Of a DNA stretch of 33,009 nt, positions 5,332-31,250 are shown piece by piece (within the stretch, counting starts at the first letter, position 1; every line of letters starts with the position of its first letter). The notes under the pieces are model-generated. The model was not told the DNA's origin. It saw nothing but the letters and a program-made list of their open reading frames with translations, and did not search any database. Origin of the DNA: a virus; IMG/VR virus record IMGVR_UViG_3300045741_000217, positions 1-33,009 of that record; one strand, written 5' to 3'. A program made the translations under genes and the position numbers.

Positions 5332-6468
5332 CTAGAACTGGACCACCGACGGAGTGAACGTGCCGGCGTCAGCCAGGTTGTTCACTGGTGCGAAGAGCGG
5401 GTCGGTCTCATCCAGTGGCAGCGCTGCTGCGTAGCCAGTGTCGGTAGCGGTTGGAGTTACTGATCCACCGTAGGTCTCCAGCTTGACCACCGAGGCCACG
5501 TTTCCGAGGCCGATTGCAATGTCCTCCCATGACTGCCAGGTGATGAGGTTTGCAATCTTGTCGATGTAGAACTTGGTCTGGTTCAGAACGTAGAACCGGC
5601 CCAAGAACTCTGGAGCAGTGAAGCAGTAGATGTTGCCCTCGCGGAGGATCTCGGTCTTGATCGTCCTGATGATCTTCAGACCGACCACTGTCGAGGCCTT
5701 CCAGCCTTCCACCGAGGTCTCGCCGGCGATCGTCATGCCGACGTCCTGGATGGTCCATGCCGAGATGTCATCATAGTCCGGCTCTGTGATGAGCATCCGC
5801 TCTGCACGCAGGTGCTTGCGGTGCAGAAGCTTCTTCAGCTTGATGAAGTCCGGCTTCAACACAGGGTGGACGGTGAAGTCGATTGCGCCAGCAGTAACCG
5901 CACCCTCACCCTTGATGACCGACGCTACCACCACGGTGCCGCCCACGCCGATGAAGGTCTGGGCATTCAGCTTCGCAGCCGAGTTGGCATTTGCAGCCAA
6001 CTGAGCAGCCTGGACAGCGGCCTCGACGAAGATCAAGAACTGACGATCCTCGACTGCCTGGATGTCCTTCACCGAGTTCTCTTCGATGATCTTGGTGATT
6101 GGCATCTCGTAGGCCAAGAGCTCCTGCTCCGTCTTCTCGAACTTCTCCGAGGAGATGGTGAAGAAGGGGATCTCGTAACGAGGGCCACGGACGAACCGGG
6201 CGCGGGGCTGACCACGGAAGGTCATGCTCATCGCCTTCGAGTTTGGCTCGATGTCGACGATCTTGACCAAGGTGTCGTGGTTCAACGACCGCTGGCACTC
6301 TGTCCTCTGCACTGGCTGAGGCGGAATGACCTTGCGTGCGAAGCTCACCTCACGGAGGCGGTCCCTGATGTACGCGCCACCGAATTCGGCGATCTTCGTC
6401 TGCCCTTCCTGCGTAGCGACCTTCTCGAAGAAGAGGTCGTTGACCTGACGTGCGTTCTGGGTGTCCAT
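5332..6468 (-). CDS. Major capsid protein (HK97-fold type, probable)
   Basis: 378 residues, ATG start with CAGGAG upstream. The length, a position a few genes downstream of the prohead protease, a likely decoration gene just before it and a strong terminator just after it all fit a major capsid protein. Sequence features consistent with the HK97 fold: an N-terminal helix (DLFFEKVATQEGQ), an E-loop-like region (SLNHDTLVKIVDIEP), the long spine-helix region (EDRQFLIFVEAAVQAAQLAAN, about 135-155) and a beta/P-domain ending YVLNQTKFYID. Codon use is more C/G-ending than in its neighbours, as expected for an abundant product. No large cleavable delta domain is obvious; the only K-x-A-[TSA] site near the N-terminus is EKVAT at about 15-19. 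Confidence 0.85.
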   Translation of the reverse strand: MDTQNARQVNDLFFEKVATQEGQTKIAEFGGAYIRDRLREVSFARKVIPPQPVQRTECQRSLNHDTLVKIVDIEPNSKAMSMTFRGQPRARFVRGPRYEIPFFTISSEKFEKTEQELLAYEMPITKIIEENSVKDIQAVEDRQFLIFVEAAVQAAQLAANANSAAKLNAQTFIGVGGTVVVASVIKGEGAVTAGAIDFTVHPVLKPDFIKLKKLLHRKHLRAERMLITEPDYDDISAWTIQDVGMTIAGETSVEGWKASTVVGLKIIRTIKTEILREGNIYCFTAPEFLGRFYVLNQTKFYIDKIANLITWQSWEDIAIGLGNVASVVKLETYGGSVTPTATDTGYAAALPLDETDPLFAPVNNLADAGTFTPSVVQF

Positions 6469-13402: not shown

Positions 13403-13466
13403 GTGGTAGACTCCTGTACTGTTGCTGGGTGCGAGACAGGGACAGGGTAGTCTCCGAGAGGAGAAC

Positions 13467-14159
13467 ATGGGAAGCGAGAAAGTGGACCAAATCTGGACGG
13501 CAAACAGATTGAACGTCACTACGAGGACCGTCAGGAACTATGTACGAGATGGTCTTCTAAAGCAGTATGTAGTGAACAACAGAGCCGTATACGATAGATC
13601 TGAAGTTGAACAGCTCGCAATTGACCAGGGCTCTGACGTCCCAGCTTTGACTAGAAAGACTGTCTTTGCCTTGGTTGCCAGAATCCAAAAGCTAGAACAA
13701 GACATGGAAGTAATGAGAAGGGCACTTGCAATCCAGAATGCTCCTCTACGACCTACGAATACAGAAGCTTTGGAACTCTACCAAGCGGCCAGCCTATCTT
13801 TAGGTTGCAGAAAGTGGCACCTAGACGAAATGAAGATGTGGTCTACGGTGTTTGATAGGCTGGATGAGCCGGCTCTACAATTGATTGGCTCGGCTGCCGT
13901 GTTGGATAAGCCTTGGGAGACCTTCTTCCAACTCTGTCTGGCCCAGATCAACTACATCTCCCAACTGCCTGGGTTCGCCACAAACCTAGAGCTACAGATG
14001 CTACACAAACAGTTAGATGAGGGGCGTAAGAAGTTACGTTCTTCAATCTTGATCTGGATCGAGCTTCATAGGGGGCAAAGCCAGGTTCAGGACACTTTGC
14101 AGGTGCTCGAAAAGGGCACAAATACCCTTCTACGCAGGCTAGGTGGCAAAAGCAGCTAA
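13467..14159 (+). CDS. MerR-type helix-turn-helix DNA-binding protein
   Basis: 230 residues. ATG 13467 is used because GAGGAG sits just before it; an upstream in-frame start at 13422 is weaker. Residues ~8-45 (IWTANRLNVTTRTVRNYVRDGLL, then a wing ending RAVYDRSEVEQLA) fit the winged helix-turn-helix of the MerR/excisionase group. A coiled-coil helix follows (ALVARIQKLEQDMEVMRRAL), then a large helical domain of unknown family. Probably a phage transcription regulator or DNA-packaging accessory protein. It is encoded opposite to the head genes with only 64 bases between divergent starts, so it may control that junction; this is inferred. A hairpin terminator follows. Confidence 0.7.
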   Translation: MGSEKVDQIWTANRLNVTTRTVRNYVRDGLLKQYVVNNRAVYDRSEVEQLAIDQGSDVPALTRKTVFALVARIQKLEQDMEVMRRALAIQNAPLRPTNTEALELYQAASLSLGCRKWHLDEMKMWSTVFDRLDEPALQLIGSAAVLDKPWETFFQLCLAQINYISQLPGFATNLELQMLHKQLDEGRKKLRSSILIWIELHRGQSQVQDTLQVLEKGTNTLLRRLGGKSS

Positions 14160-14178
14160 CTCCTGGGGATAAGAAGTT

Positions 14179-14829: not shown

Positions 14830-16620
14830 CTAATCAACACTAGTTGTCTTGCTTGTTGGATTCAGGACGTCATAGCGAGGATGAGTCAGCATGGAAGCCA
14901 AGAAGCAATAAAGCAGCGAGTGGAACGAGTCGTCAGTCTTGTCTGGCGGAGCGTCGTACTTGATCATCCTCTGGGTCTCAACGTATTCAGAAAAGATGTT
15001 AAGCATGTCTTGTCCGAATGGCTTCTCGAACTGAGACCAGTCTGGGAACCCAAAGATGTTGCCTCGCTTGATTGCTTCAAAGATATCCTTCATCACCTCG
15101 GTGCGATGCACCAGGAATCTGTGAAGGAGTGGCTCCCAACGAACCTTCTGACTTGGTGTGCTGTACTGGTATGGCCATATCTTGTTCTTGCCGAATGCGC
15201 GCATGAGGTGGCTATTCTGGTGAACACCGCCACCGTAGTCTGTACCTACCGCCTGCACGTTCCAGTACTTGAGGATGTCCTCAATCAACTGTAGTTGAAT
15301 CACCGGCTCACTCTCTGGTCCCTCGAACCGGTGGATGTAGAAGATGAAGAATCTGTCGTTCAAGTAGGTTCCAAGACTCAGAACCGTAAACGAGTGTTCT
15401 GTACCAGTACCCCAGTCAATCCCTGCCCAAACTGGGGTAGCCTGTCCAATCATGGACCTGACACGCTTTAGCGTGTCTTCACTCATGAAGAACCCCTGCC
15501 TACAGTTCTGCACCACATCTTCTCTGCGTAGAGGTCTGGTTCCGCTGTCGTAGGAGAGACCCAAAACCTCGTTGAAGAACTTGTCTCGAGCATAGGTTCG
15601 GTACTTGTCCAGGATTTCGCCCCATGGCAACCATGGCACCATCAACTGGGGGATCCTGAACCCTTCGTAGGGCTCCTTGAGCTCCTGCCTGACCCTTGGG
15701 TTCATTGAGACCCACTGGGCAAGAGGATGCATCGGATTGATCTTGTTTCCGCACTTGTCGCAGATCAGTCCGTCTTTGCCGATGTTGGGCTCCCCCAGTA
15801 CATTCCAATGCCAACTTGAAGGGGTTCCAGGTACACCATGATGTTCACAAGGAATGGCCCACTCGTTCTGAGTAGAGTGGTCAGACCAATACCTCTCAAG
15901 GGTGTTGTCGTAGCTCTTTGGGGTTCCAGCGTAGATGAAGATCTTGAAGGGAGAGTGGGATGCCGACTCTTCAATAACTGGGATGTTGTCGGTGATGATG
16001 TCCTGGATCTCATCGATCAGGATCATGTCCGACGGGATACCGCGAACACGGTCGGCGTTGTGGTAGGCGTACCGCAGAGTGATCTGACTTCTGTTCACGA
16101 ACTTCTTCAAGAACACGTTGTCGGCAAGCTTGCTGGTAGTCCAAGCTTTGAGGACCTCAGACGTGTCGATTGGCTCCTTCAAACGGTCTTGGGAGAACAC
16201 CTTCGTCTGGGCGTTGGTAGGGGAGACGTACAGGATGTTGAAGCTGGAGTGGATTGCCGCGTAAGCAATGCTCTTGTTGCCAAGGAGGGTGCTCTTCTCT
16301 ACCTGGCGTCCGCACTTATAGAGGGTTCGTCTGGAGCTGACGTCGTAGGGCAGCCTAAGATAACGACGCTCGTTGAATGAGAAGGGAATCTGCTTCTGGG
16401 TGTGTGGTTCCCTGACCCGGATGGCAAACTCGACGAACTCAGAAGGGCTGACACCGATGACATCGGCAGCCTTCTGCATGGCTATGTCTTCGTCGTACTC
16501 TTCACGTATCCTTGGTTCGAAGTCCCACTCTTCCCTCAGTTCAGGCTGCCCACTCTCGGAGATGACGACGTTACTACGCATCTCTCGACGGAGCTCTTCG
16601 GAGGTAATGACCTTGCTCAT
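14830..16620 (-). CDS. terL: Terminase large subunit (DNA-packaging ATPase/nuclease)
   Basis: 596 residues from ATG 16620, with AGAGG just upstream; a GTG at 16686 overlaps the divergent gene. ATPase domain: Walker A-type CGRQVEKST (G104-S110, with Glu in place of the usual second Gly), strand ILYVSPT, and Walker B MILIDE (Asp203, Glu204). An inserted Cys/His group follows (CEHH at 258-261 and CDKC at 287-290), probably zinc-binding. RNase H-like nuclease domain: Asp402 in WAGIDWGTG, Asp461 in VGTDYGGG and Asp563/564 in KTDDSFHSLLY. It pumps DNA into the prohead and cuts it. No small terminase gene was recognised nearby. It is divergent from a plus-strand gene 53 bases away. Confidence 0.95.
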   Translation of the reverse strand: MSKVITSEELRREMRSNVVISESGQPELREEWDFEPRIREEYDEDIAMQKAADVIGVSPSEFVEFAIRVREPHTQKQIPFSFNERRYLRLPYDVSSRRTLYKCGRQVEKSTLLGNKSIAYAAIHSSFNILYVSPTNAQTKVFSQDRLKEPIDTSEVLKAWTTSKLADNVFLKKFVNRSQITLRYAYHNADRVRGIPSDMILIDEIQDIITDNIPVIEESASHSPFKIFIYAGTPKSYDNTLERYWSDHSTQNEWAIPCEHHGVPGTPSSWHWNVLGEPNIGKDGLICDKCGNKINPMHPLAQWVSMNPRVRQELKEPYEGFRIPQLMVPWLPWGEILDKYRTYARDKFFNEVLGLSYDSGTRPLRREDVVQNCRQGFFMSEDTLKRVRSMIGQATPVWAGIDWGTGTEHSFTVLSLGTYLNDRFFIFYIHRFEGPESEPVIQLQLIEDILKYWNVQAVGTDYGGGVHQNSHLMRAFGKNKIWPYQYSTPSQKVRWEPLLHRFLVHRTEVMKDIFEAIKRGNIFGFPDWSQFEKPFGQDMLNIFSEYVETQRMIKYDAPPDKTDDSFHSLLYCFLASMLTHPRYDVLNPTSKTTSVD

Positions 16621-16673
16621 GAACCTCTCGCAGGCGTCAGTAAATTCGTGTACACAGTAGCACAGGAGAGGCC

Positions 16674-16994
16674 ATGCACGCTTCACTACCGCCCCTAGCC
16701 TGGCTGGATGATTTCTGTGAGTCTATGAAAGCTGCCGTTGGAGAGAACATTACCTACTCCATTGCAGATACAGACGAAGAGATGGTCAAGCTGGTTACTT
16801 TTCGATTCCAGACCTACATTGGCATCAAGAGCCTGAGGTTGATTTACAGCCTTCTACACGACTGGGCAACGTCAAATAACTGCGGAACGATCGATAGCTT
16901 CAAACGATCGGACTTCAGTATGTTCACGAAAATCGTGGTCAAACGGCAATTCGGTCAAATGAAGATTCATCACCCTCTCGGGGATAAGAAGTAG
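16674..16994 (+). CDS. Small protein of unknown function
   Basis: 106 residues, ATG start with AGGAG upstream. No transmembrane segment and no metal site; helical with a central FRFQTYIGIKSLRLIYSLLHDW stretch and a basic C-terminal part (FTKIVVKRQFGQMKIHHPLGDKK). First gene of a short plus-strand operon that continues into zinc-ribbon microproteins and RNase HII. Its divergent neighbour is the terminase. No family recognised. Confidence 0.6.
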   Translation: MHASLPPLAWLDDFCESMKAAVGENITYSIADTDEEMVKLVTFRFQTYIGIKSLRLIYSLLHDWATSNNCGTIDSFKRSDFSMFTKIVVKRQFGQMKIHHPLGDKK

Positions 16995-17195: not shown

Positions 17196-17370
17196 CATCA
17201 ACCGGAAGCGTGGGACTCGTAGTCGCTACCAACGGTGCCCCAAGTGCAAGAAGCTCCGACTGAGGAGATTCCTGCCCAACAACTGGCACCCATGGAGAAA
17301 GATGTGGGGAAAGTTGGGTAACCAGGTTGTTTGCCACATCTGTATAGACCGAGCGGCGTTATGCTCGTAG
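17137..17370 (+). CDS. Basic zinc-finger microprotein
   Basis: 77 residues from ATG 17137, with AAGGAAGAG upstream, inside the preceding gene. The N-terminal 35 residues are Arg/Lys/Ser-rich, followed by CPKCKKLRLRRFLP and, after about 30 residues, CHIC: a widely spaced four-Cys site. Its end overlaps the RNase HII start by 10 bases. The strongly basic, zinc-binding character suggests binding to nucleic acid; no family recognised. The start could also be upstream, but the N-terminal part of that frame reads as a shadow of the preceding gene. Confidence 0.55.
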   Translation: MPRNSSSKAPDPTKFERKSSINRKRGTRSRYQRCPKCKKLRLRRFLPNNWHPWRKMWGKLGNQVVCHICIDRAALCS

Positions 17371-17966
17371 CCGGTTGTGATGAAGTAGGGACTGGAGCTT
17401 TGGCTGGACCCATCATCTCAGTCATCACAGTCTTCAGAGAGGAAGATCTCCCACTTCTCTCAAAACAAGTAAGAGACTCCAAGCAGGTATCCCCTACGAT
17501 GCGTCGTAGTCTCTACTTAGGCCTTTGTAAGGCAGCCTTTGACGTAGGCATCGGTTACGCATTTCCGTGGGAGATAGACAAGATCAGGTACACAAACGCC
17601 CTTCAGCTTTCTTATTCCAGGGCGCTAAAAGACCTACGGTCCACTCCAGAAATCCTCTACATGGATGGCGTCAATGCTGTACGAGCTTGGAAAGGTAGAC
17701 AGATTGTAGAGCCAAAAGCAGACGCCAAGTACAAGCAGGTGTCAGCCGCCAGCATCATTGCGAAGGTGTTCCGAGACGCATTGATGGCTGAAGAGGGTAA
17801 GAAGCATCCTCAGTACAACTGGGCGCAAAACCACGGCTATGGTACCCCAGACCACATTGAGGCCATTGAGAAACATGGCCTGCTATTCGACGGGCAGAGC
17901 TACTCCCATCGTCGAACCTTCTGCACCAAGCTCATCAACCGACTGGCAACAAGGAGCATGAAATGA
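17361..17966 (+). CDS. rnhB: Ribonuclease HII
   Basis: 201 residues from ATG 17361; a TTG at 17331 would add 10 residues. Motifs of type 2 RNase H are clear: VAGCDEVGTGALAGP (catalytic Asp7/Glu8), ILYMDGVNA (Asp102) and PKADAKYKQVSAASIIAKV (Asp121), followed by a C-terminal HGYGTPDH...H pattern also typical of the family. It cleaves RNA in RNA-DNA hybrids and at single ribonucleotides in DNA. The usual Arg after DEVG is Thr here, and 'GPL' reads 'GAL', small deviations in the substrate-binding GRG motif. Likely roles are primer removal or degradation of transcript hybrids. Overlaps zinc-finger genes on both sides. Confidence 0.93.
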   Translation: MLVAGCDEVGTGALAGPIISVITVFREEDLPLLSKQVRDSKQVSPTMRRSLYLGLCKAAFDVGIGYAFPWEIDKIRYTNALQLSYSRALKDLRSTPEILYMDGVNAVRAWKGRQIVEPKADAKYKQVSAASIIAKVFRDALMAEEGKKHPQYNWAQNHGYGTPDHIEAIEKHGLLFDGQSYSHRRTFCTKLINRLATRSMK

Positions 17967-22615: not shown

Positions 22616-23704
22616 CTAATCAGAGAACAGTGCTTGAGAGACGATCCCTAAATCTGGTGGAACTGGAGGAGGACCAGCACCCAATGCAGTGTGAACGTGG
22701 GTGGCCAACCAAGTCAAAAGGGGCACAGCAAGAGCTACAGGACTGCTGCCACCTTGAACGACGGTAGCTCCCTGTAAAGAGATAGAGCTGGCGGCAGTAA
22801 TCTCGACAGCGCCAGTCTGAGCTTCGATGGCGACATCAGCGCCAGCAGCTCCAAGACTACTAGCTGCGGAGATCTGCACATTGCCGCCACTCGTCAATGT
22901 CATATCTCCATCCGAGTGTACGGTGTAATTCCCTGAGGTGAATCCGTTTACATCCCCTTGCGAAACCCAGCTCACTTCTCCGGTTTTCTTCATCAAAAGC
23001 TTGATCTGATCGGCAGAACCTTCGCCTCCAGAGTCGTGAATCACCAAGCGCAGGATAGTGTCCTCATCTCCCTCTTGGGAACCTATTTCCAGTTCTGCCA
23101 CATACTTAGAGTCGTCGGAGAACTCCTTTGCAGAGAGCTTCAAGGAGCTTGGACGAGTTCCATCGGTGGTTTCTTCCTGACGCCGTATGGTCCACTCCAA
23201 GTCGCCACCAAGTGAATGGATGGCAAAGTTCTCACAGTAGTTCTTGATGGTGTTGTTGATCGGAACATAGATGGTTTGGGCTAGTGGTGTAGCTCCAATC
23301 TGAACAACCCCACCACGCCTCAACACCATGAAGTTCTCATCTCTGGTCCCAAGGTAGATGTCACCAGGATTCAAGCTCTGCTTATTTGTCCTGAAGCTGC
23401 CCTTTGTATCCATGCCTGCTTTCCAGGCGATAACAAAAGGTTTGCCTCCATCTGAGTTGTAACAGACCCAACAGAGACTCCCTACCTCAGGCATGAAGTA
23501 GATACCCTCACCATTGTTGGGGTGCTGGTAGGGTGTAGCAAAAGGAATCTCTGAGTGTGGGCTCTTGATGAACTCAGGCGCGATGGTAACGGTGTACCTG
23601 TCTACGTTTACGTTCAGAACTCGAGCAGACAAGATGAACGCAGGAGTAATGCTCGAGTAAGTAAGCCTGCCTCCTAGTTGATCTGGATAAGAAACGGTAG
23701 GCAC
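22616..23704 (-). CDS. Baseplate spike protein (gp5/VgrG-like)
   Basis: 362 residues. The start is GTG 23704, with AGGAG five bases upstream that uses the polymerase stop codon (TAG) as part of the site. N-terminal OB-fold-like domain (FILSARVLNVNVDRYTVTIAPEF; GEGIYFMPEVGSLCWVCYN, with typical GxxPxVGxxV-like wording), and a C-terminal beta-helix with repeated short strands (DGDMTLTSGGNVQISAAS, VEITAASSISLQGAT), ending in ATHVHTALGAGPPP, a common close for gp5/gpV-type spikes. It pierces the host envelope in contractile tails. This supports a contractile (myovirus) tail. No lysozyme domain is present. Confidence 0.82.
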   Translation of the reverse strand: MPTVSYPDQLGGRLTYSSITPAFILSARVLNVNVDRYTVTIAPEFIKSPHSEIPFATPYQHPNNGEGIYFMPEVGSLCWVCYNSDGGKPFVIAWKAGMDTKGSFRTNKQSLNPGDIYLGTRDENFMVLRRGGVVQIGATPLAQTIYVPINNTIKNYCENFAIHSLGGDLEWTIRRQEETTDGTRPSSLKLSAKEFSDDSKYVAELEIGSQEGDEDTILRLVIHDSGGEGSADQIKLLMKKTGEVSWVSQGDVNGFTSGNYTVHSDGDMTLTSGGNVQISAASSLGAAGADVAIEAQTGAVEITAASSISLQGATVVQGGSSPVALAVPLLTWLATHVHTALGAGPPPVPPDLGIVSQALFSD

Positions 23705-23712
23705 GTTGACTC

Positions 23713-26700
23713 CTAGTAGACGTGCGGCTTCTTTTCTTTGAGATCAGCTGGTGGCCGTCCGAACTCACTACCCCTTGCGTAGGCAGGAATTGGGTGTGAT
23801 GAGTGGATGTCACTCTTCCATGCCTGGGCTGCGCCCTGCATGATCGTCTGGGCCAACCTCTGGTAGTTCAACCTAGCCATCCAGTCTGTAGACCCTACGC
23901 CAGTAGAAACCTGCTTGATGCCATGAAGAACAGGCTCATGAATGATGGGCTTTTCTCCAGGCTTCAAATTCCGATTGTGTTCATCAACTACGGACCTGGC
24001 AGTTACGTCTCCATGAAGTAGTTCGCTAGTCCCAGGATCTTTCACCTTGGTTAGGTTGGTCATGGAACGTACCACAACTTCGACATTGCGCCGGCGTACA
24101 CCTTCCTTGTCATAGAGCTCATTGTACATCTCGTCAGTCAGATACTTCTGCACCCGGTGAATGTCTGACAATGGTAGCAGATGACGTGGGTTGATTGGCC
24201 CATCTGATAGAGGATGGGACTTAGACACTTCCGAACCAACCCCTACTTTCAGTTTTGTGGGGTACGGCACGTAGTGTTTCTCCAACTCCCCACCAGCATG
24301 AGGCTGTACCATTACGTCGTGGCCGCCGGCAGCGTCCTTGGTGACGGCAACAACCTTACCATCTATCCTAGATAGCGTAGCAGCGTTCTTCAACTTCTTT
24401 GGGATCTCGAGCAAGTGGGAGAGCCTTGTCATACGGTCAACTGACTCTGCACCACGCCCTTGGGCAAGACCACCGCTGTGGAAGCTGTCCATTGCCATCT
24501 GTACAGCCGGCTCAGACAAAGCCTGCCCAGCCAATACACCGATGTTTGTACCGACCTCATGTAGCCTACCGTTCTCGTTCAAGCCAAAACACTTGGAGCA
24601 GATACCATCTCCGTGCTGGCACTTCAGTGGAGATCTAGCCAGCACCTTCTCATGTCCGCTCTTGCGAAGCTTGGCTGAGAGCTCTGGGGTAATGAGATCT
24701 CCAGGCTTTGCGATCGTTCCATCATGCAGCTTGTACTGGGTCGCCAGGAAACGATCGTGTACGTCCTTATGACTGCGATCGTCCTCTCCATCCTTGGTTG
24801 GAGGAGTAAGACGCATAAGAACACCCTGACTGGTCCCACAATCCTTGGAGACGATCAGAGTGCTCATAGTGGCATTGATGATGTCCTTCGACACTACGCC
24901 AGGCTCGCTGGTTCCAAGTGTACGCTGTAGAGTTCCCTTGCGAGCGCCATGCTGGGCTTGCCAGTAATCACCGACATCCAAGCCTTCGGCATAGCTCCTG
25001 GTGACCGGAGTCATCAGAGTGCGTCCAGAGCCATCCTGCATGAGCATTGGTGCTGCGATCATCTGCCTCAGCTGCTCCGGCTTTCCCTTCGATCCAGTGT
25101 AAACCATCTGCGCCAGACGGTTTCCAGAAGTTGCGTGGAACTTCTTGGACAGCTCATCCAACTGTGTAGTTGCATCTTGATAAGTTGCAATGACCTGACT
25201 ATCACGGTCATCCCTGTTGGTTACAGTCTTCTTGATGTGCTCTGCTTTCTTCTGTGCATCATCAAGAATTGCCTTGCGTCCAGGCAAAGGCGCGATGTCA
25301 CGAAGACCAAACGAGAAGCCTGCACGATACACGTGTTCGTTACCGAGGTTCTTCAGCCCGTCCACTGTCTCAGAGAATTCCCGTGGATGCTCTCGAGCAA
25401 CGATGTCGGCAATGCTGTTCATCACCTTCTTGTTGATAGTGAAGGTTGGGCTGTGCAACACGTCCGAGTTGAGCTTGAATCCTGAAGGCAGCTTCTCGGC
25501 AAGCATCAAGCGACCGACAGTAGTAGCGCCCTTGGCACCCTTGACGGTCACGACGTCATCGACAGCGATCTTGTGCGCCTCGTAGGCCTTCTTTGCATCA
25601 CCCACAGTATCGAACTTGTGGTTGGTGGTCTTTCCCCACTTGGTAAGCAAGTGAAGACCTAACATTGACTCCTGCACAGGCATGAACATTGGCCCGCCAG
25701 AAGTAGGAGAGAACAGGTTCTTGGAAGGGAACATCTGTTTGGCTTCCTCCACTGCCTCCTTGGACATTGGGACGAAGCCAGACATGGTGTCGCCGTCGAA
25801 GTCGGCGTTGAATCCACCGCAGACCAGTGGATGGATCTGGATGGCCTTCCCTTCTACCAACCTGGGCTTGAAGGACAGAATGTTGAACTTGTGTAGTGCA
25901 GGGTCGCGCTTGAGCATCAGCGGGCGATCTGCAATTGCCTTCTCAAGAGCCTTGAAGGCAATGTCTGACCCCTTCTTCATGTGGTCCTGGGCGTCCAATG
26001 CCGTGACGCCCATCTTCTTCATCTCGACCACAACGTAGGGCTTATAGAGCTCCATCGCTGCATTTCTGGGGATGCCCACCTCATCCAGTCCAAGCTTTGG
26101 CTCTGGGATGATGGTAGAGCGGATAGATAGGTTCTGACGACGAGCTACAAGCTTGCGCTGGAAGTAACCTTCCTTTGGCTGCGTCTTCTCCCCAGAGTCC
26201 TTCTCCCCGCCACCAATCATGGCGAGAATGCCCTTCAAGGACCGTTTTCCACCAGGTGAATCTGTGTCGTACCCAACCGTCCCTCCAACAGACTGGAAGG
26301 CCTTTACACTCTCATAGAGAGAGTGCCTCAGTGGATGTAGCATCTCCACTGGCATGATGTTGTGGTCAAACTCACCGACCTTTTGGTTGAGCACTGCAAT
26401 GTTCTTGTAAAGACCATTGAGCGACGATGCGTGGACATCCCCATTTTCCGTCTCAGTCACTGGACGGAATACAGGAGGAAGAACCGGCAAGGTGTGGAGA
26501 ACGTAAGCCTCGTGAGGCTTCATTCCTACTTCCTTCAATGCAAGCAGGTAACGAAGCTTCTTGTTTGCGCGATCTAGCTCTGCACCACGTGTCACGCTCT
26601 TGAGCTTGGCCCGCTGGAGATCAATCTCCTTATCGACATCCAGCTTCTTCAGCGCGCCCTCGATAGCGTGCCCACCAGTCTTGCCGTTGATCTCCATCTC

Positions 26701-29700
26701 ACCGCGCATGACCTTTTCAACATCATCTAGTTTCATCCCCAACAGTGTTGGGACAGGTCCAGTCTGGTTGCCAGAACCAACAAAGATCGGGTTGGGGATA
26801 GGCTCGTTGAGACGAATGAATCCCCACTTGGTTCCTTCGCGCCCACCAGTAATTCCAATATCAAAGAGGCCATGCTTCTCTTCGCGTAGGTCTTTTGCAC
26901 GAAGAGTCATGTTGGCATTCTTGATCTCCCCCTTTGGCCCTCCGGCCATGTGGATGATCTCTTTGTCCGTCAAAGGCTGAATACGCATCTGAGTGCCATG
27001 CTTCTCGATGTTCACCCCAAGCCCTTTGAGCAGGCCCGTAAACTTCTCATAAGCAAATGGAACTTTGGGAGGTGGTGGCTCGTAGCCCTCCTGAATCATT
27101 GACCAGAAGCCAGCATCCTGGAGGTCTGACTTGTACGTTGCTGCTTCACGAAGATTGGCCCTGGCGTTATGCCCAAGCAACACGTACGCATCGAGCTGAC
27201 CAAGGCTCTGGCCGCTGTTTCCACTTCCCCGAGTAGGCTGCCGATCAACATCGACAGGCAACGGACGACGATTCAGATCGGTTCCACCACCACGTACGGA
27301 GAGCTTCTTCTCCACCTGGTGCTTCAACTTCATCAGGTACTGGGGGCCAACTAGAACAGAGCCCAGTGCATGGTTCGGATCATTTGGGTCGTAGACCTTC
27401 TCTTCGTCGGAAATACCATGAGCCTTGAGATCCTTCATTACTTGCTCATGGTAGATATGGCTTGGGCCGGCAAAGTTGTCCACCTTGTAGACCTTGCCGG
27501 TCTTCTCTGCGATCTTTCCTACAGCTGTCTCCATTGCCTGGCCGATGTTGATACGGCTAGGCACACCATGAGGGTTGAGAAGTACCTCAAGAGGCTTTGC
27601 CTCCCCCTTCTCATCCTTCGTGTGCGGCATCTCATGATCTGGAAGGATCATGGTCACGATGCCCTTGTTTCCATGCCGACCCGAAAGCTTGTCGCCAATG
27701 ACCAGAGGCTCCTCAGTCTTGACGTAGACCTTTACGTCCTTTCCAGTTGGGCTCTTCACCACCTTGATGACTTCACCAACGTGGTCTTCGTCCCAAACAA
27801 TCGAGTTGTCCTTCCAAGGCTTCCAAGAACGCTTTCCAAATTCAGCGATCTTCTGGGTGTTCTTCTTTAGAGCCGCAACCATTACCTGACCAGGAACAAC
27901 CTTGGTCCCAGGCTTGATGATTCCCTCATCATCAAGAGCATTGATGTGCTCCTGAGGGATTGACTTCGCCTTCAATGATGCATGTACCAGAAACTTGCTC
28001 TTGGAGACGATGTCCGTATCTGGGTCTACTTCCAGACTGCGACGGTGCAGGTGTTCCGAGGTCAGCTTCTTGGCGGCGCTCTCGGAAATGACGATGCCGT
28101 CCTCGAAGTTGTATCCCTTGTATGGGATGTAACCAACCCGCAGGTTGGTGCCGAGAGCCAGAGTTCCGCCCTTGGTGTAGTTCGAGTCTGCTAGTAGCTG
28201 ACCCTTCTTGACGGAGTCACCTACCTGGACAGTGGGAGTTGAGTGCAACATCCCCTTGGCGTCATTCAAGGGGAAGTGATCGTAGATGTGTACTTCATGC
28301 TTCTTCCTGCCATCACCAATGACGATTGCGTCCTTCTTGATGGCGACTACCTTTCCATCAACGGGGGCAGAGATAGAAGTAAAGCGACCTACTTCATGAT
28401 CGAACGTATGCACCCCTGGTCCCATAGACTGAACCAGTGGTGGCTCTCTGTGCTTGAGCGAGATGGCCTGCTCCATCTGTTTGTCGGCCATCGATACGCG
28501 GTTGCCCTGATCGCAAGGAAGGAACGGAATCAGGTTAGAAGCAATGCCGAACACACCCTTAGTGCTCGGCATGACGTAACGAGCATCTGAGAACTTGGAC
28601 GGATGAATATCACCACCCTCGTGCTTGATCTTGACCTCAGACGAGATGGGCTTTGGGATACCCTTCTCCCACCTCACCTGGTCTGGCAACACAACCTTGG
28701 CGTCGTGAAACTGTGCCGGGTTAAGATAGGTCAGCTTGCCTGTTTCCTTGTCGAAAACAGGAGATACCAAGTCCTTCCCGATCTTCTGGGTGGACAAGTT
28801 CATGTGCAGAGTGATGCCAGTCCTCGAGCTCTCAGGCGTGTGCATCGGATCTAGGAACCCGAAATGGCTCGGGTTGATGACACGCATCTCATCAATAAGG
28901 GAGTGCTCGCTCTTCATTCCTCCGAAGTCTGGGGCAATGAGTGTGGTCTTGTGGTGACCGGCTAGCATCTGTAGAGGGTTGGTCTGTTCAGATCTCTCTG
29001 TGATGGAACCACTCTTCTTAAAGAAGTCCATTACTGGACGGGCGAAGAGATCTGGGGACACGATCTCGAGCACAGACTTCTTACGATCTACCGTGTGCCG
29101 CAGACGTCCCTTGATGGACATGTCTGCCCGCTTGATCTTCTCTGGGATGAAGTCCTCTACAGAAACAACCTCCTTGAAGGAGAGGTTGTCGCGGTCATCT
29201 GGTTGTACTGTGCCTCGAGCTACTCCCAACAGTTTAGCGGTAGCTAGCTGAAGCGTTTCTCCATTCACGGAGTCAAAGGCCTTGCCTAAAGTCACCTTGG
29301 TTGTGTCGGGACGCAATTGCGTCTTGCTAAACCAATCCTTCACATGCGCTACGGCCTTACCCAAATCCGCCGGCGCTGCCTGGTCGCCCGTCTTTGAGTA
29401 GAAGGAATGCAGTGACTTGTTGAAGGCGTTCTGATCTTTTGGCTTGTTAGCCGCCAAGATCTCCTTGCCCCAAGCCACCTGTAGCTGATCGTCGGAAACA
29501 CCCAACGAATGCAGGATTGGATACAGAGGGATGTGTGTAGATCCCATCTTCATCTGGAACTGCTTCTTCTTGCGGTCCAGGAAGACTGAGAAGCCATTGC
29601 CGCTGGCTAGGTTGAACTCAGACTTGATGTCACCGTTCTGCTGGATGCGAGCGTAGACGCCACTCTTCAAACGAAAGAGGTGGTCTACCTGATACTCATT

Positions 29701-30015
29701 GCCATCGACGATGAATCCATACCTGGATGTCATCTTCGGAAGACGAGAAAGAGTCATCGTCTTTGAATCGATCACTTTGCCAGTAGCCTTGTCGATCAAC
29801 TCGAGATCGCCCTTGATGGGCACGCCCCAGGTCTTCTCCTTGTCCTTTGCCTCCGCCTGGGAACGGATGTCATCAACAGACAACTTGTCATCTGCCCAGA
29901 TGTTCTTGAGCACGAGCTTCTGATTACGGCCTTCGTATGGAAAGTACGACGACACTGACTTGATGACGCTATCCTTCAGTACACTAAAGGAAAGCTCTGG
30001 GTCGATCGTTGGCAT
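23713..30015 (-). CDS. Single-chain fused RNA polymerase beta-beta' (phage multisubunit-type RNAP)
   Basis: 2100 residues, ATG start with GGGCGG upstream. Beta half (~1-1010): fork/Rif region NPLQMLAGHH (346-355) and NPSHFGFLDPMHTPES (381-396); YKGYNFEDG around 634; GDKLSGRHGNKG (774-785) with the two catalytic-centre lysines K776/K784. Beta-prime half (~1015-2100): VLPPVFRPV, RQNLSIRSTI, KRDPALHKFNIL, catalytic NADFDGD (1403-1409; Mg-binding Asp1405/1407/1409), bridge-helix HGARKG (near 1689), a zinc site (Cys1726, 1799, 1806, 1809) and trigger loop ending SFHSGG (His1846). The N-terminal zinc site of bacterial beta-prime is absent. Much shorter than E. coli beta plus beta-prime. No alpha or sigma gene is seen in the window. 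Probably transcribes phage genes; its place directly before the spike gene suggests a virion-packaged form. Confidence 0.95.
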   Translation of the reverse strand: MPTIDPELSFSVLKDSVIKSVSSYFPYEGRNQKLVLKNIWADDKLSVDDIRSQAEAKDKEKTWGVPIKGDLELIDKATGKVIDSKTMTLSRLPKMTSRYGFIVDGNEYQVDHLFRLKSGVYARIQQNGDIKSEFNLASGNGFSVFLDRKKKQFQMKMGSTHIPLYPILHSLGVSDDQLQVAWGKEILAANKPKDQNAFNKSLHSFYSKTGDQAAPADLGKAVAHVKDWFSKTQLRPDTTKVTLGKAFDSVNGETLQLATAKLLGVARGTVQPDDRDNLSFKEVVSVEDFIPEKIKRADMSIKGRLRHTVDRKKSVLEIVSPDLFARPVMDFFKKSGSITERSEQTNPLQMLAGHHKTTLIAPDFGGMKSEHSLIDEMRVINPSHFGFLDPMHTPESSRTGITLHMNLSTQKIGKDLVSPVFDKETGKLTYLNPAQFHDAKVVLPDQVRWEKGIPKPISSEVKIKHEGGDIHPSKFSDARYVMPSTKGVFGIASNLIPFLPCDQGNRVSMADKQMEQAISLKHREPPLVQSMGPGVHTFDHEVGRFTSISAPVDGKVVAIKKDAIVIGDGRKKHEVHIYDHFPLNDAKGMLHSTPTVQVGDSVKKGQLLADSNYTKGGTLALGTNLRVGYIPYKGYNFEDGIVISESAAKKLTSEHLHRRSLEVDPDTDIVSKSKFLVHASLKAKSIPQEHINALDDEGIIKPGTKVVPGQVMVAALKKNTQKIAEFGKRSWKPWKDNSIVWDEDHVGEVIKVVKSPTGKDVKVYVKTEEPLVIGDKLSGRHGNKGIVTMILPDHEMPHTKDEKGEAKPLEVLLNPHGVPSRINIGQAMETAVGKIAEKTGKVYKVDNFAGPSHIYHEQVMKDLKAHGISDEEKVYDPNDPNHALGSVLVGPQYLMKLKHQVEKKLSVRGGGTDLNRRPLPVDVDRQPTRGSGNSGQSLGQLDAYVLLGHNARANLREAATYKSDLQDAGFWSMIQEGYEPPPPKVPFAYEKFTGLLKGLGVNIEKHGTQMRIQPLTDKEIIHMAGGPKGEIKNANMTLRAKDLREEKHGLFDIGITGGREGTKWGFIRLNEPIPNPIFVGSGNQTGPVPTLLGMKLDDVEKVMRGEMEINGKTGGHAIEGALKKLDVDKEIDLQRAKLKSVTRGAELDRANKKLRYLLALKEVGMKPHEAYVLHTLPVLPPVFRPVTETENGDVHASSLNGLYKNIAVLNQKVGEFDHNIMPVEMLHPLRHSLYESVKAFQSVGGTVGYDTDSPGGKRSLKGILAMIGGGEKDSGEKTQPKEGYFQRKLVARRQNLSIRSTIIPEPKLGLDEVGIPRNAAMELYKPYVVVEMKKMGVTALDAQDHMKKGSDIAFKALEKAIADRPLMLKRDPALHKFNILSFKPRLVEGKAIQIHPLVCGGFNADFDGDTMSGFVPMSKEAVEEAKQMFPSKNLFSPTSGGPMFMPVQESMLGLHLLTKWGKTTNHKFDTVGDAKKAYEAHKIAVDDVVTVKGAKGATTVGRLMLAEKLPSGFKLNSDVLHSPTFTINKKVMNSIADIVAREHPREFSETVDGLKNLGNEHVYRAGFSFGLRDIAPLPGRKAILDDAQKKAEHIKKTVTNRDDRDSQVIATYQDATTQLDELSKKFHATSGNRLAQMVYTGSKGKPEQLRQMIAAPMLMQDGSGRTLMTPVTRSYAEGLDVGDYWQAQHGARKGTLQRTLGTSEPGVVSKDIINATMSTLIVSKDCGTSQGVLMRLTPPTKDGEDDRSHKDVHDRFLATQYKLHDGTIAKPGDLITPELSAKLRKSGHEKVLARSPLKCQHGDGICSKCFGLNENGRLHEVGTNIGVLAGQALSEPAVQMAMDSFHSGGLAQGRGAESVDRMTRLSHLLEIPKKLKNAATLSRIDGKVVAVTKDAAGGHDVMVQPHAGGELEKHYVPYPTKLKVGVGSEVSKSHPLSDGPINPRHLLPLSDIHRVQKYLTDEMYNELYDKEGVRRRNVEVVVRSMTNLTKVKDPGTSELLHGDVTARSVVDEHNRNLKPGEKPIIHEPVLHGIKQVSTGVGSTDWMARLNYQRLAQTIMQGAAQAWKSDIHSSHPIPAYARGSEFGRPPADLKEKKPHVY

Positions 30016-30186
30016 CGCATCCGCCCTGCGCGTTGGGGGAAATGTTCAAGTGCCGGGCCCTACCTCGTGCGCTCGAGGTTCTCGGGTCCGCCGTAACAAT
30101 GGTGAAGATACAGCGAAAACCTAGGAGGAGGAAGGGATAAGAATCTGTACACATCTTGACTCAATGTTCAAACTTTGGAGGTTGCC
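30016..30186. promoter_or_regulatory. Divergent intergenic region between the polymerase and the Cys-rich operon
   Basis: About 170 bases separating divergent transcription units, so promoters for both directions are expected here. I see a small CCTCG/CGAGG hairpin around 30062-30079 and an AGGAGGAGG stretch near 30123 without a usable start codon. On the minus strand TTGAAC followed about 16 bases later by TGTGTACAGAT is a weak promoter-like candidate. No clear consensus on the plus strand. Confidence 0.3.
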
Positions 30187-30270
30187 TTGAAGCTCTTCTT
30201 CATCGCTTTCCTGGTCTCACTCCTTCGCTACTTTGCAACCGCATGCATGGTTGCAGCTAGCCACGGATAG
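30187..30270 (+). CDS. Hydrophobic leader-type peptide
   Basis: 27 residues starting at TTG 30187, with GGAGG exactly five bases upstream. Sequence is a single hydrophobic helix (KLFFIAFLVSLLRYFATACM), like a signal or membrane peptide. The stop is 4 bases before the GTG start of the next Cys-rich protein, so translation may be coupled. It is too short for routine gene calling. The strong ribosome binding site is the main evidence; it could still be chance. Confidence 0.45.
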   Translation: MKLFFIAFLVSLLRYFATACMVAASHG

Positions 30271-30274
30271 GCTC

Positions 30275-30664
30275 GTGTCAGACCCCTACGACCCGCCGAC
30301 CAAGATTGCGTTCTGCAAAATCCTCCACGCTGCAAACGGAGGACGATTCAACGAATGGGGGAAGCCAATCTTCGAGGAGGGTGTACGGGGTAACTGTGAC
30401 GATCCGCATGATTGTGGAAACTGCGGATACTTCCAGTCCTGGATTCAAACCCTCGCTCCGACCTACGTCATCACTTGGGAATGCCAAGCCTGCGTCAAAT
30501 GGACGAAAGACGTCTGGAGATCTCTCCAGGGCTACTACCACGAAGGTGTCTGCCAACGGTGCGGTCTCATCAACACACCACTCCTTCAACTAGTTCTTAG
30601 AGCTGAGGTGCTTCCTCCGTTTCCGTGGCCACTAGATCGTTGGCCTCCGCCAGATGAGGAATGA
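30275..30664 (+). CDS. Cys-rich zinc-binding-type protein
   Basis: 129 residues if started at GTG 30275 (GGATAGG upstream, just after the leader stop); a TTG at 30233 is possible but unsupported. Cys pairs CDDPHDCGNC (around 45-54), CQAC (around 75-78) and CQRC (around 96-99) suggest two zinc sites. The C-terminus is Pro/Trp-rich (PPFPWPLDRWPPPDEE) and probably disordered. Starts the operon divergent from the RNA polymerase gene, so it may be a transcription accessory factor; this is inferred from position only. Confidence 0.6.
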   Translation: MSDPYDPPTKIAFCKILHAANGGRFNEWGKPIFEEGVRGNCDDPHDCGNCGYFQSWIQTLAPTYVITWECQACVKWTKDVWRSLQGYYHEGVCQRCGLINTPLLQLVLRAEVLPPFPWPLDRWPPPDEE

Positions 30665-30898
30665 ATGCTGTGTGAGATCTGCTCCAGAAAGATCAGACCA
30701 GAGCATAGGGTCTTCGTACTCAAGGTTGCGGTTGCAGAAGCTGGGGATGACATCAATTACAACAACGTTGGACTGGTTCCATCTGGGTTTGAAGACGGGA
30801 CAAAAGAAAAGCTCTGGCACTATCGATGTGCCTTCCAAATGATCTCCCCGATGTCACTACTCGGCGTCGTTAGGAGTGACGAGAGGTCAGATGTCTGA
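30665..30898 (+). CDS. Small Cys-containing protein
   Basis: 77 residues, ATG directly after the previous stop, with GAGGAATGA overlapping as its ribosome binding site. CEIC near the N-terminus and HYRC near residue 55 form a possible C-x2-C...H-x2-C zinc site. Between them a beta-like segment (HRVFVLKVAVAEAG). Second of three Cys-rich genes. Function unknown. Confidence 0.55.
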   Translation: MLCEICSRKIRPEHRVFVLKVAVAEAGDDINYNNVGLVPSGFEDGTKEKLWHYRCAFQMISPMSLLGVVRSDERSDV

Positions 30899-31250
30899 CG
30901 CCACCTACCAACCAGGGTTCAATCAGCCTTGGCCCCAAGAAGCTTACGAACAAACACCAGTGCTGAATGAGCTCGTCTGTGATTACTGCGGGGAGATCAT
31001 AGAGCGAGGAGACCGAGCATTCAGTGTTCTACCTGGTGTACCCGGCATCAGCAAGAAAAGTGGAAGAATGACGTTGGTGGATGAGGATCCAAACAATCCA
31101 GAAGAAGCACATATAGTGCATCTCCACTGCATCATACCAGCGGCTCTCGGGGAGGAAGCGTACACTTGTATGGGCTGTGGTGAAGAGTTGCTATGCCCAA
31201 CATGCGACGATGTTCACTGCGCTAACTGTGACATCTCGACAAAGCCATGA
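30891..31250 (+). CDS. Cys-rich zinc-binding-type protein (two Cys clusters)
   Basis: 119 residues from ATG 30891 (AGAGG upstream), overlapping the previous gene by 8 bases. First cluster CDYCGEIIERGD with HLHC about 45 residues later resembles the pattern of the preceding gene (C-x2-C...H-x2-C), suggesting related folds. The C-terminal cluster CMGCGEELLCPTCDDVHCANC holds six Cys in 21 residues and could bind one or two zinc ions. Its stop overlaps the next start (ATGA). Role unknown. Confidence 0.6.
   Translation: MSDATYQPGFNQPWPQEAYEQTPVLNELVCDYCGEIIERGDRAFSVLPGVPGISKKSGRMTLVDEDPNNPEEAHIVHLHCIIPAALGEEAYTCMGCGEELLCPTCDDVHCANCDISTKP

Follow-up and report, generated by a model that had tools for sequence, protein, structure and literature searches.

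A single-chain beta-beta' RNA polymerase in a tailed phage and its large lineage of relatives with a sigma-70-like factor and a promoter-like motif

The IMG/VR virus record IMGVR_UViG_3300045741_000217 encodes the beta and beta' subunits of a bacterial-type RNA polymerase (RNAP) in one polypeptide. The window, meaning the whole stretch of DNA analyzed here, is the complete linear record of 33,009 bases, and the phage is known from this 33-kb fragment. The open reading frame at positions 23713..30015 (minus strand) specifies 2100 amino acids from an ATG and has no internal stops. That this gene is an intact single-chain beta-beta' RNAP is near certain with respect to both identity and integrity, and the intact catalytic motifs and predicted fold of the 2100-residue chain suggest an active core capable of DNA-dependent RNA synthesis. 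Considering the relatives of the enzyme as well, we think it likely that this is a virion-packaged, sigma-programmed single-chain RNAP that transcribes early genes from phage-specific promoters.

Pfam models match the frame in the order Rpb2_3, Rpb2_6, Rpb1_1, Rpb1_2, Rpb1_3, Rpb1_4 and Rpb1_5, with best E-values of 4.5e-61 (Rpb2_6) and 1.7e-26 (Rpb1_2). Among chains of known structure, bacterial beta' matches at E ~1e-121. The NCBIfam models for the Helicobacter-type beta/beta' fusion, rpoC and rpoB score 577, 567 and 335 bits, respectively, while the archaeal B and A' models reach only 147 and 124 bits, which identifies the enzyme as bacterial-type.

The beta half comprises residues 1-1008 (26992..30015; all features of the chain lie on the minus strand) and is defined by Rpb2_3, Rpb2_6 and a structure match to bacterial beta chains. 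Its catalytic motif GDKLSGRHGNKG aligns with bacterial beta at residues 774-785 (27661..27696). The halves meet without an added linker at residues ~1001-1020 (26956..27015), as indicated by alignment and by a model that is confident across the junction. The beta' half, residues 1009-2100 (23716..26991), is supported by Pfam, alignment and structure match and has lost the N-terminal zinc-binding domain with four cysteines found in bacterial beta'. Alignment further places the NADFDGD metal-binding loop at residues 1403-1409 (25789..25809), the bridge helix at 1691-1706 (24898..24945), a C-terminal cysteine cluster at C1799, C1806 and C1809 (24589..24621) and the trigger-loop region at 1826-1851 (24463..24540). 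The chain consists of two double-psi beta-barrel halves carrying GDK..GRHGNKG and NADFDGD. Alignments with bacterial and phage relatives show conservation of its beta and beta' catalytic motifs, its bridge helix and its trigger loop.

AlphaFold2 models were computed with 74-75 natural homologues as input. Residues 330-1475, which include both catalytic barrels and the junction, were modeled with a predicted local distance difference test (pLDDT) of 88 and a predicted template modeling score (pTM) of 0.82, and residues 985-2100 with a pLDDT of 92 and a pTM of 0.89. In Foldseek searches the first model matches bacterial beta chains and the second bacterial beta' chains. The top matches listed against the PDB are cellular and plastid chains only, crAss-like RNAP not being among them, and the search therefore gave no comparison with that enzyme. 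A sequence-only reading of the window had proposed one 2100-residue frame with beta and beta' landmarks in order, including the two catalytic motifs, and had seen in it a compact, bacterial-like fusion. The Pfam order, NCBIfam scores, alignments and models bear this out, and the Rpb1/Rpb2 profile searches and structure prediction which that reading had suggested as checks recovered both domain sets and both folds. Several relatives carry large in-frame inserts in the chain. Those in L015 and L016, the two checked, are intein-like with LAGLIDADG and splicing domains; others occur in L079, L089, L103, L114, L118, L122 and L203. Most inserts are located directly after NADFDGD, another follows beta residue ~820 and that of L103 lies near residue 1847.

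The enzyme belongs to a large phage group, most of it uncultured. A first scan of IMG/VR identified 13 relatives at 53-63% identity, mostly over the whole length and on contigs of up to 209 kb. This full-length identity with independent contigs, combined with the confident models, excludes a chance resemblance. A deeper scan found at least 273 stretches encoding relatives, and de-duplicated loci comprise 87 single chains, 38 of a split type, 11 truncated at a contig end and 3 of other kinds. In the split type, beta is fused to the N-terminal part of beta' (~1470 residues without inserts) and the C-terminal part of beta' is a separate gene, located nearby in 30 of 38 cases. Cultured members of this type are Salmonella phage Arash and Vibrio phages D69, D181 and D148, and there are cultured members whose RNAP genes carry no annotation beyond 'beta' or 'hypothetical'; the break in the Arash/D69 sub-clade corresponds to residues ~1483-1518 of the window enzyme (25462..25569), based on alignment and the architectures of relatives. 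In D181 (L004) a homing endonuclease gene interrupts the beta part, which is not so in D69. Further unusual chain breaks are found in L226, L227 and L124, that of L227 being close to the beta/beta' junction.

Separate trees of the beta and beta' halves agree. In these quick trees, made without bootstraps and from phage and bacterial sequences, the 44 phage enzymes sampled all cluster together (support 99 and 100), separate from 23 bacterial enzymes (support 100). The window enzyme clusters with L017, L013 and L008 in both. Phages Carin-5, GN1, RHph_Y65 and Va2 fall outside this phage group, and three phage-labeled records with ordinary bacterial rpoB-rpoC (OR846602, OR844998 and CAKLQH020000005; L027-L029) group with bacteria. 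Because the split type nests as a single group among single chains in both trees, the economical reading is that fusion is ancestral to the large phage clade and that the beta' break after the active site would have occurred once.

Sigma and the remaining core subunits were sought in the relatives. Pfam models for sigma regions 2 and 4 find almost nothing in close relatives, and a weak match in L026 provided a 290-residue query protein. Orthologues of this sigma-70-like protein are present in 13 of 14 large relatives, the one in Arash being Gp10. Its regions 2, 3 and 4 are related to sigma-70, as tested in the relatives. A profile of the family matches RpoS, RpoD and SigA structures in the PDB, with a best E-value of 2.4e-7 (RpoS), and many NCBIfam sigma models, every one below its curated cut-off. 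A window gene at 13422-14159 (plus strand), with same-place relatives in L006 and L019, encodes an N-terminal helix-turn-helix and was rejected as a sigma candidate because it looks MerR-like. Alpha (PF01193) was not detected in 11 large relative records and omega (PF01192) not in 14, in searches whose controls matched, and host subunits may still serve. A search for a second, T7-type RNAP had no match, but its control also matched nowhere, so it is no evidence of absence.

In the full contigs, GGCATAAG or GGGATAAG with CAA(A) ahead of it is over-represented in upstream regions, from which we propose the promoter form CAA(A)-N ~13-16-GGNATAAG. Of the motif sites in close relatives, 35 lie opposite the RNAP gene and 2 on its own strand, where 4.7 would be expected for either strand. 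Further genomes contain GGTATAAG or GGGATAAG, and in Arash 30 intergenic sites lie opposite the RNAP strand versus 3 on it. Each of the six large genomes that were inspected, which have different hosts, contains the motif. Since it is conserved across genomes of 42-61% GC, we infer that the phage sigma reads the GGNATAAG motif. Exact GGGATAAGAA sites occur three times in the window, at 14166, 16981 and 30134, all of them on the plus strand and before plus-strand genes; when one mismatch is allowed there are 6 matches versus 1.5 expected. In the motif scan the first (14166..14175) is a promoter-like site with GCAAAAG upstream, the second (16981..16990) precedes the RNase HII gene block and the third falls within a promoter-like CGAAAA...GGGATAAG site (30114..30141, plus strand) that diverges from the RNAP gene. 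No clear late-strand promoter motif was seen in G004 or G005. Two other upstream elements were noted. A host-like TTGAC-N17/18-TAYYCT sequence lies ~60-130 bases upstream of RNAP in L009, L011, L014, L017 and L020, overlapping the divergent GGNATAAG site; the window phage lacks its TTGAC part. On the RNAP strand of Arash (L263-L272), 5 of 18 upstream regions contain CTAAAAT/TAAAATA, recalling T4-type late promoters.

Evidence for packaging comes from the virion proteome of Arash (PMC10585845). The fused beta and N-terminal beta' protein, Gp206, is the most detected protein with 3516 spectra, above the major capsid protein, while the C-terminal beta' protein Gp216 has 1210 spectra and the sigma Gp10 467 spectra with 24 unique peptides. 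Gp196, the second annotated Arash sigma, is not mentioned in the main text of that report. By analogy, RNAP may be packaged in the virion of the window phage as well, and since both RNAP and sigma are found in the particle of one cultured relative, the transcription machinery is probably injected by the virus in finished form. In the mechanism we propose, beta followed by beta' would be made as one polypeptide forming an active bacterial-type core. This core could assemble without alpha and omega because its catalytic halves are covalently joined, and would pair with the phage-encoded sigma-70-like factor. The core, together with sigma in at least one relative, would be packaged, injected and then transcribe from CAA(A)-N~13-16-GGNATAAG promoters, mostly opposite the strand of the RNAP and virion genes. 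The broader proposal, that the whole large-phage lineage injects a single-chain core with its own sigma, which needs neither alpha, omega nor sigma from the host and recognizes a CAA...GGNATAAG promoter across hosts, is one we favor by a narrow balance.

Several observations weigh against this mechanism. The sigma gene is absent from the window by orthologue search, the window being a 33-kb fragment, and one of the 14 large relatives has no sigma match. The strand bias of the motif is weak in G010 (12 vs 6 sites) and absent in G011 (8 vs 8). The motif tells which genes follow it, not when they are expressed, and host RNAP carrying the phage sigma could read the putative GGNATAAG-type promoters. 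Arash is a distant member (~33% identity) with a two-piece enzyme; its preparation may hold contaminants because 116 proteins were detected, and its authors offer either early transcription or carry-over from abundant expression as explanations (PMC10585845).

As an alternative, RNAP would be made during infection for middle or late transcription, with virion copies as carry-over and the GGNATAAG promoters read by host RNAP with phage sigma. We consider this unlikely, but it is the most serious competitor: carry-over is allowed by the Arash authors (PMC10585845), the host-like sequence lies upstream of RNAP in some relatives and Arash GGTATAAG resembles the sigma-70 -10 element. This alternative fits poorly with the fused RNAP exceeding even the major capsid protein in Arash virion spectra, with just one of the two Arash sigmas being reported in virions, with the place of the RNAP gene among virion genes and with a motif core that recurs across different hosts and such a range of GC. 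It is considerably less probable that the fusion is a precursor cut after synthesis into beta and beta'. Such phages have a gene for a head protease, and cleavage of virion proteins is common, but the junction is compact, conserved, free of a variable linker and confidently modeled, and NCBIfam family models attest natural fused bacterial enzymes. An assembly artefact, chimera or decayed gene, conceivable for one metagenomic contig, has a negligible chance in view of the stop-free frame, the many independent contigs of the same architecture and the concordant half-trees; the divergent ancestry of the halves that the sequence-only reading had named as grounds for abandoning its claim did not appear.

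The surroundings of the gene are those of a tailed phage, as the same window encodes a large terminase (14830..16686, minus; phrog_675, E 1e-63), a major capsid protein (5332..6468, minus; phrog_2522, with relatives in Arash and D69), a baseplate-hub-like protein and a head protease. Virion genes surround the RNAP gene: the hub/spike-like gene (22616..23704, minus; identified by family profile and relatives) lies directly downstream with conserved synteny and is followed by conserved genes up to the terminase. In relatives RNAP is located between the portal gene upstream and the hub, and in Arash and D69 it likewise follows the portal. The leader of the RNAP mRNA contains a conserved hairpin (30052..30092, minus) of which 4 of the 8 base pairs show compensatory changes among 13 sequences; in 13 close relatives it has the form ACCTC..GCGC..GAGGTAG. 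An Rfam scan of the window, hairpin included, had zero matches. Adjoining RNAP, a divergent cluster (30233-31250, plus) encodes small cysteine-rich, zinc-ribbon-like proteins, the first of which is kept in place in relatives. The phage-encoded RNase HII (17331-17966, plus) is also kept in relatives.

Two general questions become directly testable with two genes when nature supplies a one-chain core, its cognate sigma and a motif that can be read: by what route an RNAP core assembles when alpha and omega are lacking, and what number of polypeptides suffices for a sigma-dependent enzyme. If the proposal is true, this enzyme would rank with the simplest known RNAPs that depend on sigma. Fusion first with a single later beta' fission bears on the debate over phage RNAP splitting, and the lineage accounts for RNAP genes left 'hypothetical' or half-annotated in the genomes of cultured phages.

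The fused RpoBC enzymes of Helicobacter, Wolinella and Wolbachia work with alpha and omega. Like the phage enzyme they join beta to beta' in a single protein (NCBIfam PRK09603, PRK14844), but they are cellular and ~2840-2890 residues long, compared to 2100 residues for the phage chain, whose clade lies outside the sampled bacteria. In crAss-like phages beta and beta' are likewise fused, according to PMC7481178, which also describes their RNAP as too divergent to be found by beta/beta' profiles; RNAP-associated proteins are carried there as virion cargo (PMC10172136). The virion and non-virion RNAPs of phiKZ and AR9 share the lack of alpha and omega, and the virion enzyme transcribes early genes, but each consists of at least four separate, highly divergent polypeptides instead of one chain (PMC7598289). 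The protein gp226, which serves AR9 as promoter factor, does not resemble sigma in sequence (PMC7598289), whereas the relatives of the window phage have a true sigma-70-like factor. The expectation of a lineage apart from phiKZ-type enzymes held, and beta and beta' are not each split over several genes here. The common split site of the phiKZ-type enzymes, after double-psi beta-barrel A (DPBB-A), is similar to the one in the Arash sub-clade.

Arash (PMC10585845) and the Vibrio phages D69, D181 and D148 have a homologous gene for fused beta and N-terminal beta' next to the portal and share with the window lineage a sigma factor (Arash, D69), the GGTATAAG motif (Arash) and RNAP in virions (Arash). 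They differ in that a second gene encodes the part of beta' beyond a break behind the active site, in ~30-33% identity and, for Arash, in AADYDGD replacing NADFDGD. The lineage probably corresponds to the multi-subunit RNAP-encoding Caudovirales (mReC) already described by Weinheimer and Aylward in 2020 (PMC7481178). According to that report, these are tailed phages from IMG/VR whose beta and beta' can be aligned to those of bacteria and form one clade apart from cells; the window clade is likewise monophyletic, outside the sampled bacteria and alignable to cellular beta/beta'. Metagenome 3300017989 is the source of two of the three mReC examples named there and of the single-chain member L202. 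The same report assigns to family PF07068 the 8 capsid proteins that it detected in its set of 97 mReC, while the window capsid has no Pfam match at E 0.01 and hence none to PF07068. The sequence-only reading had called an intact fusion in a phage unusual. The fusion itself stands, but not its isolation, given the at least 273 IMG/VR stretches, the probable mReC overlap, the one-chain crAss-like RNAP and the cultured members. The mReC report mentions fusion for crAss-like phages only and, in the parts consulted, neither sigma factor nor promoters, and in the portions of the literature searched we did not find one-chain architecture, later fission, conserved sigma or promoter motif described for the mReC lineage. 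New here are the conserved sigma-70-like factor and the promoter-like motif (CAA...GGNATAAG) shared within the lineage.

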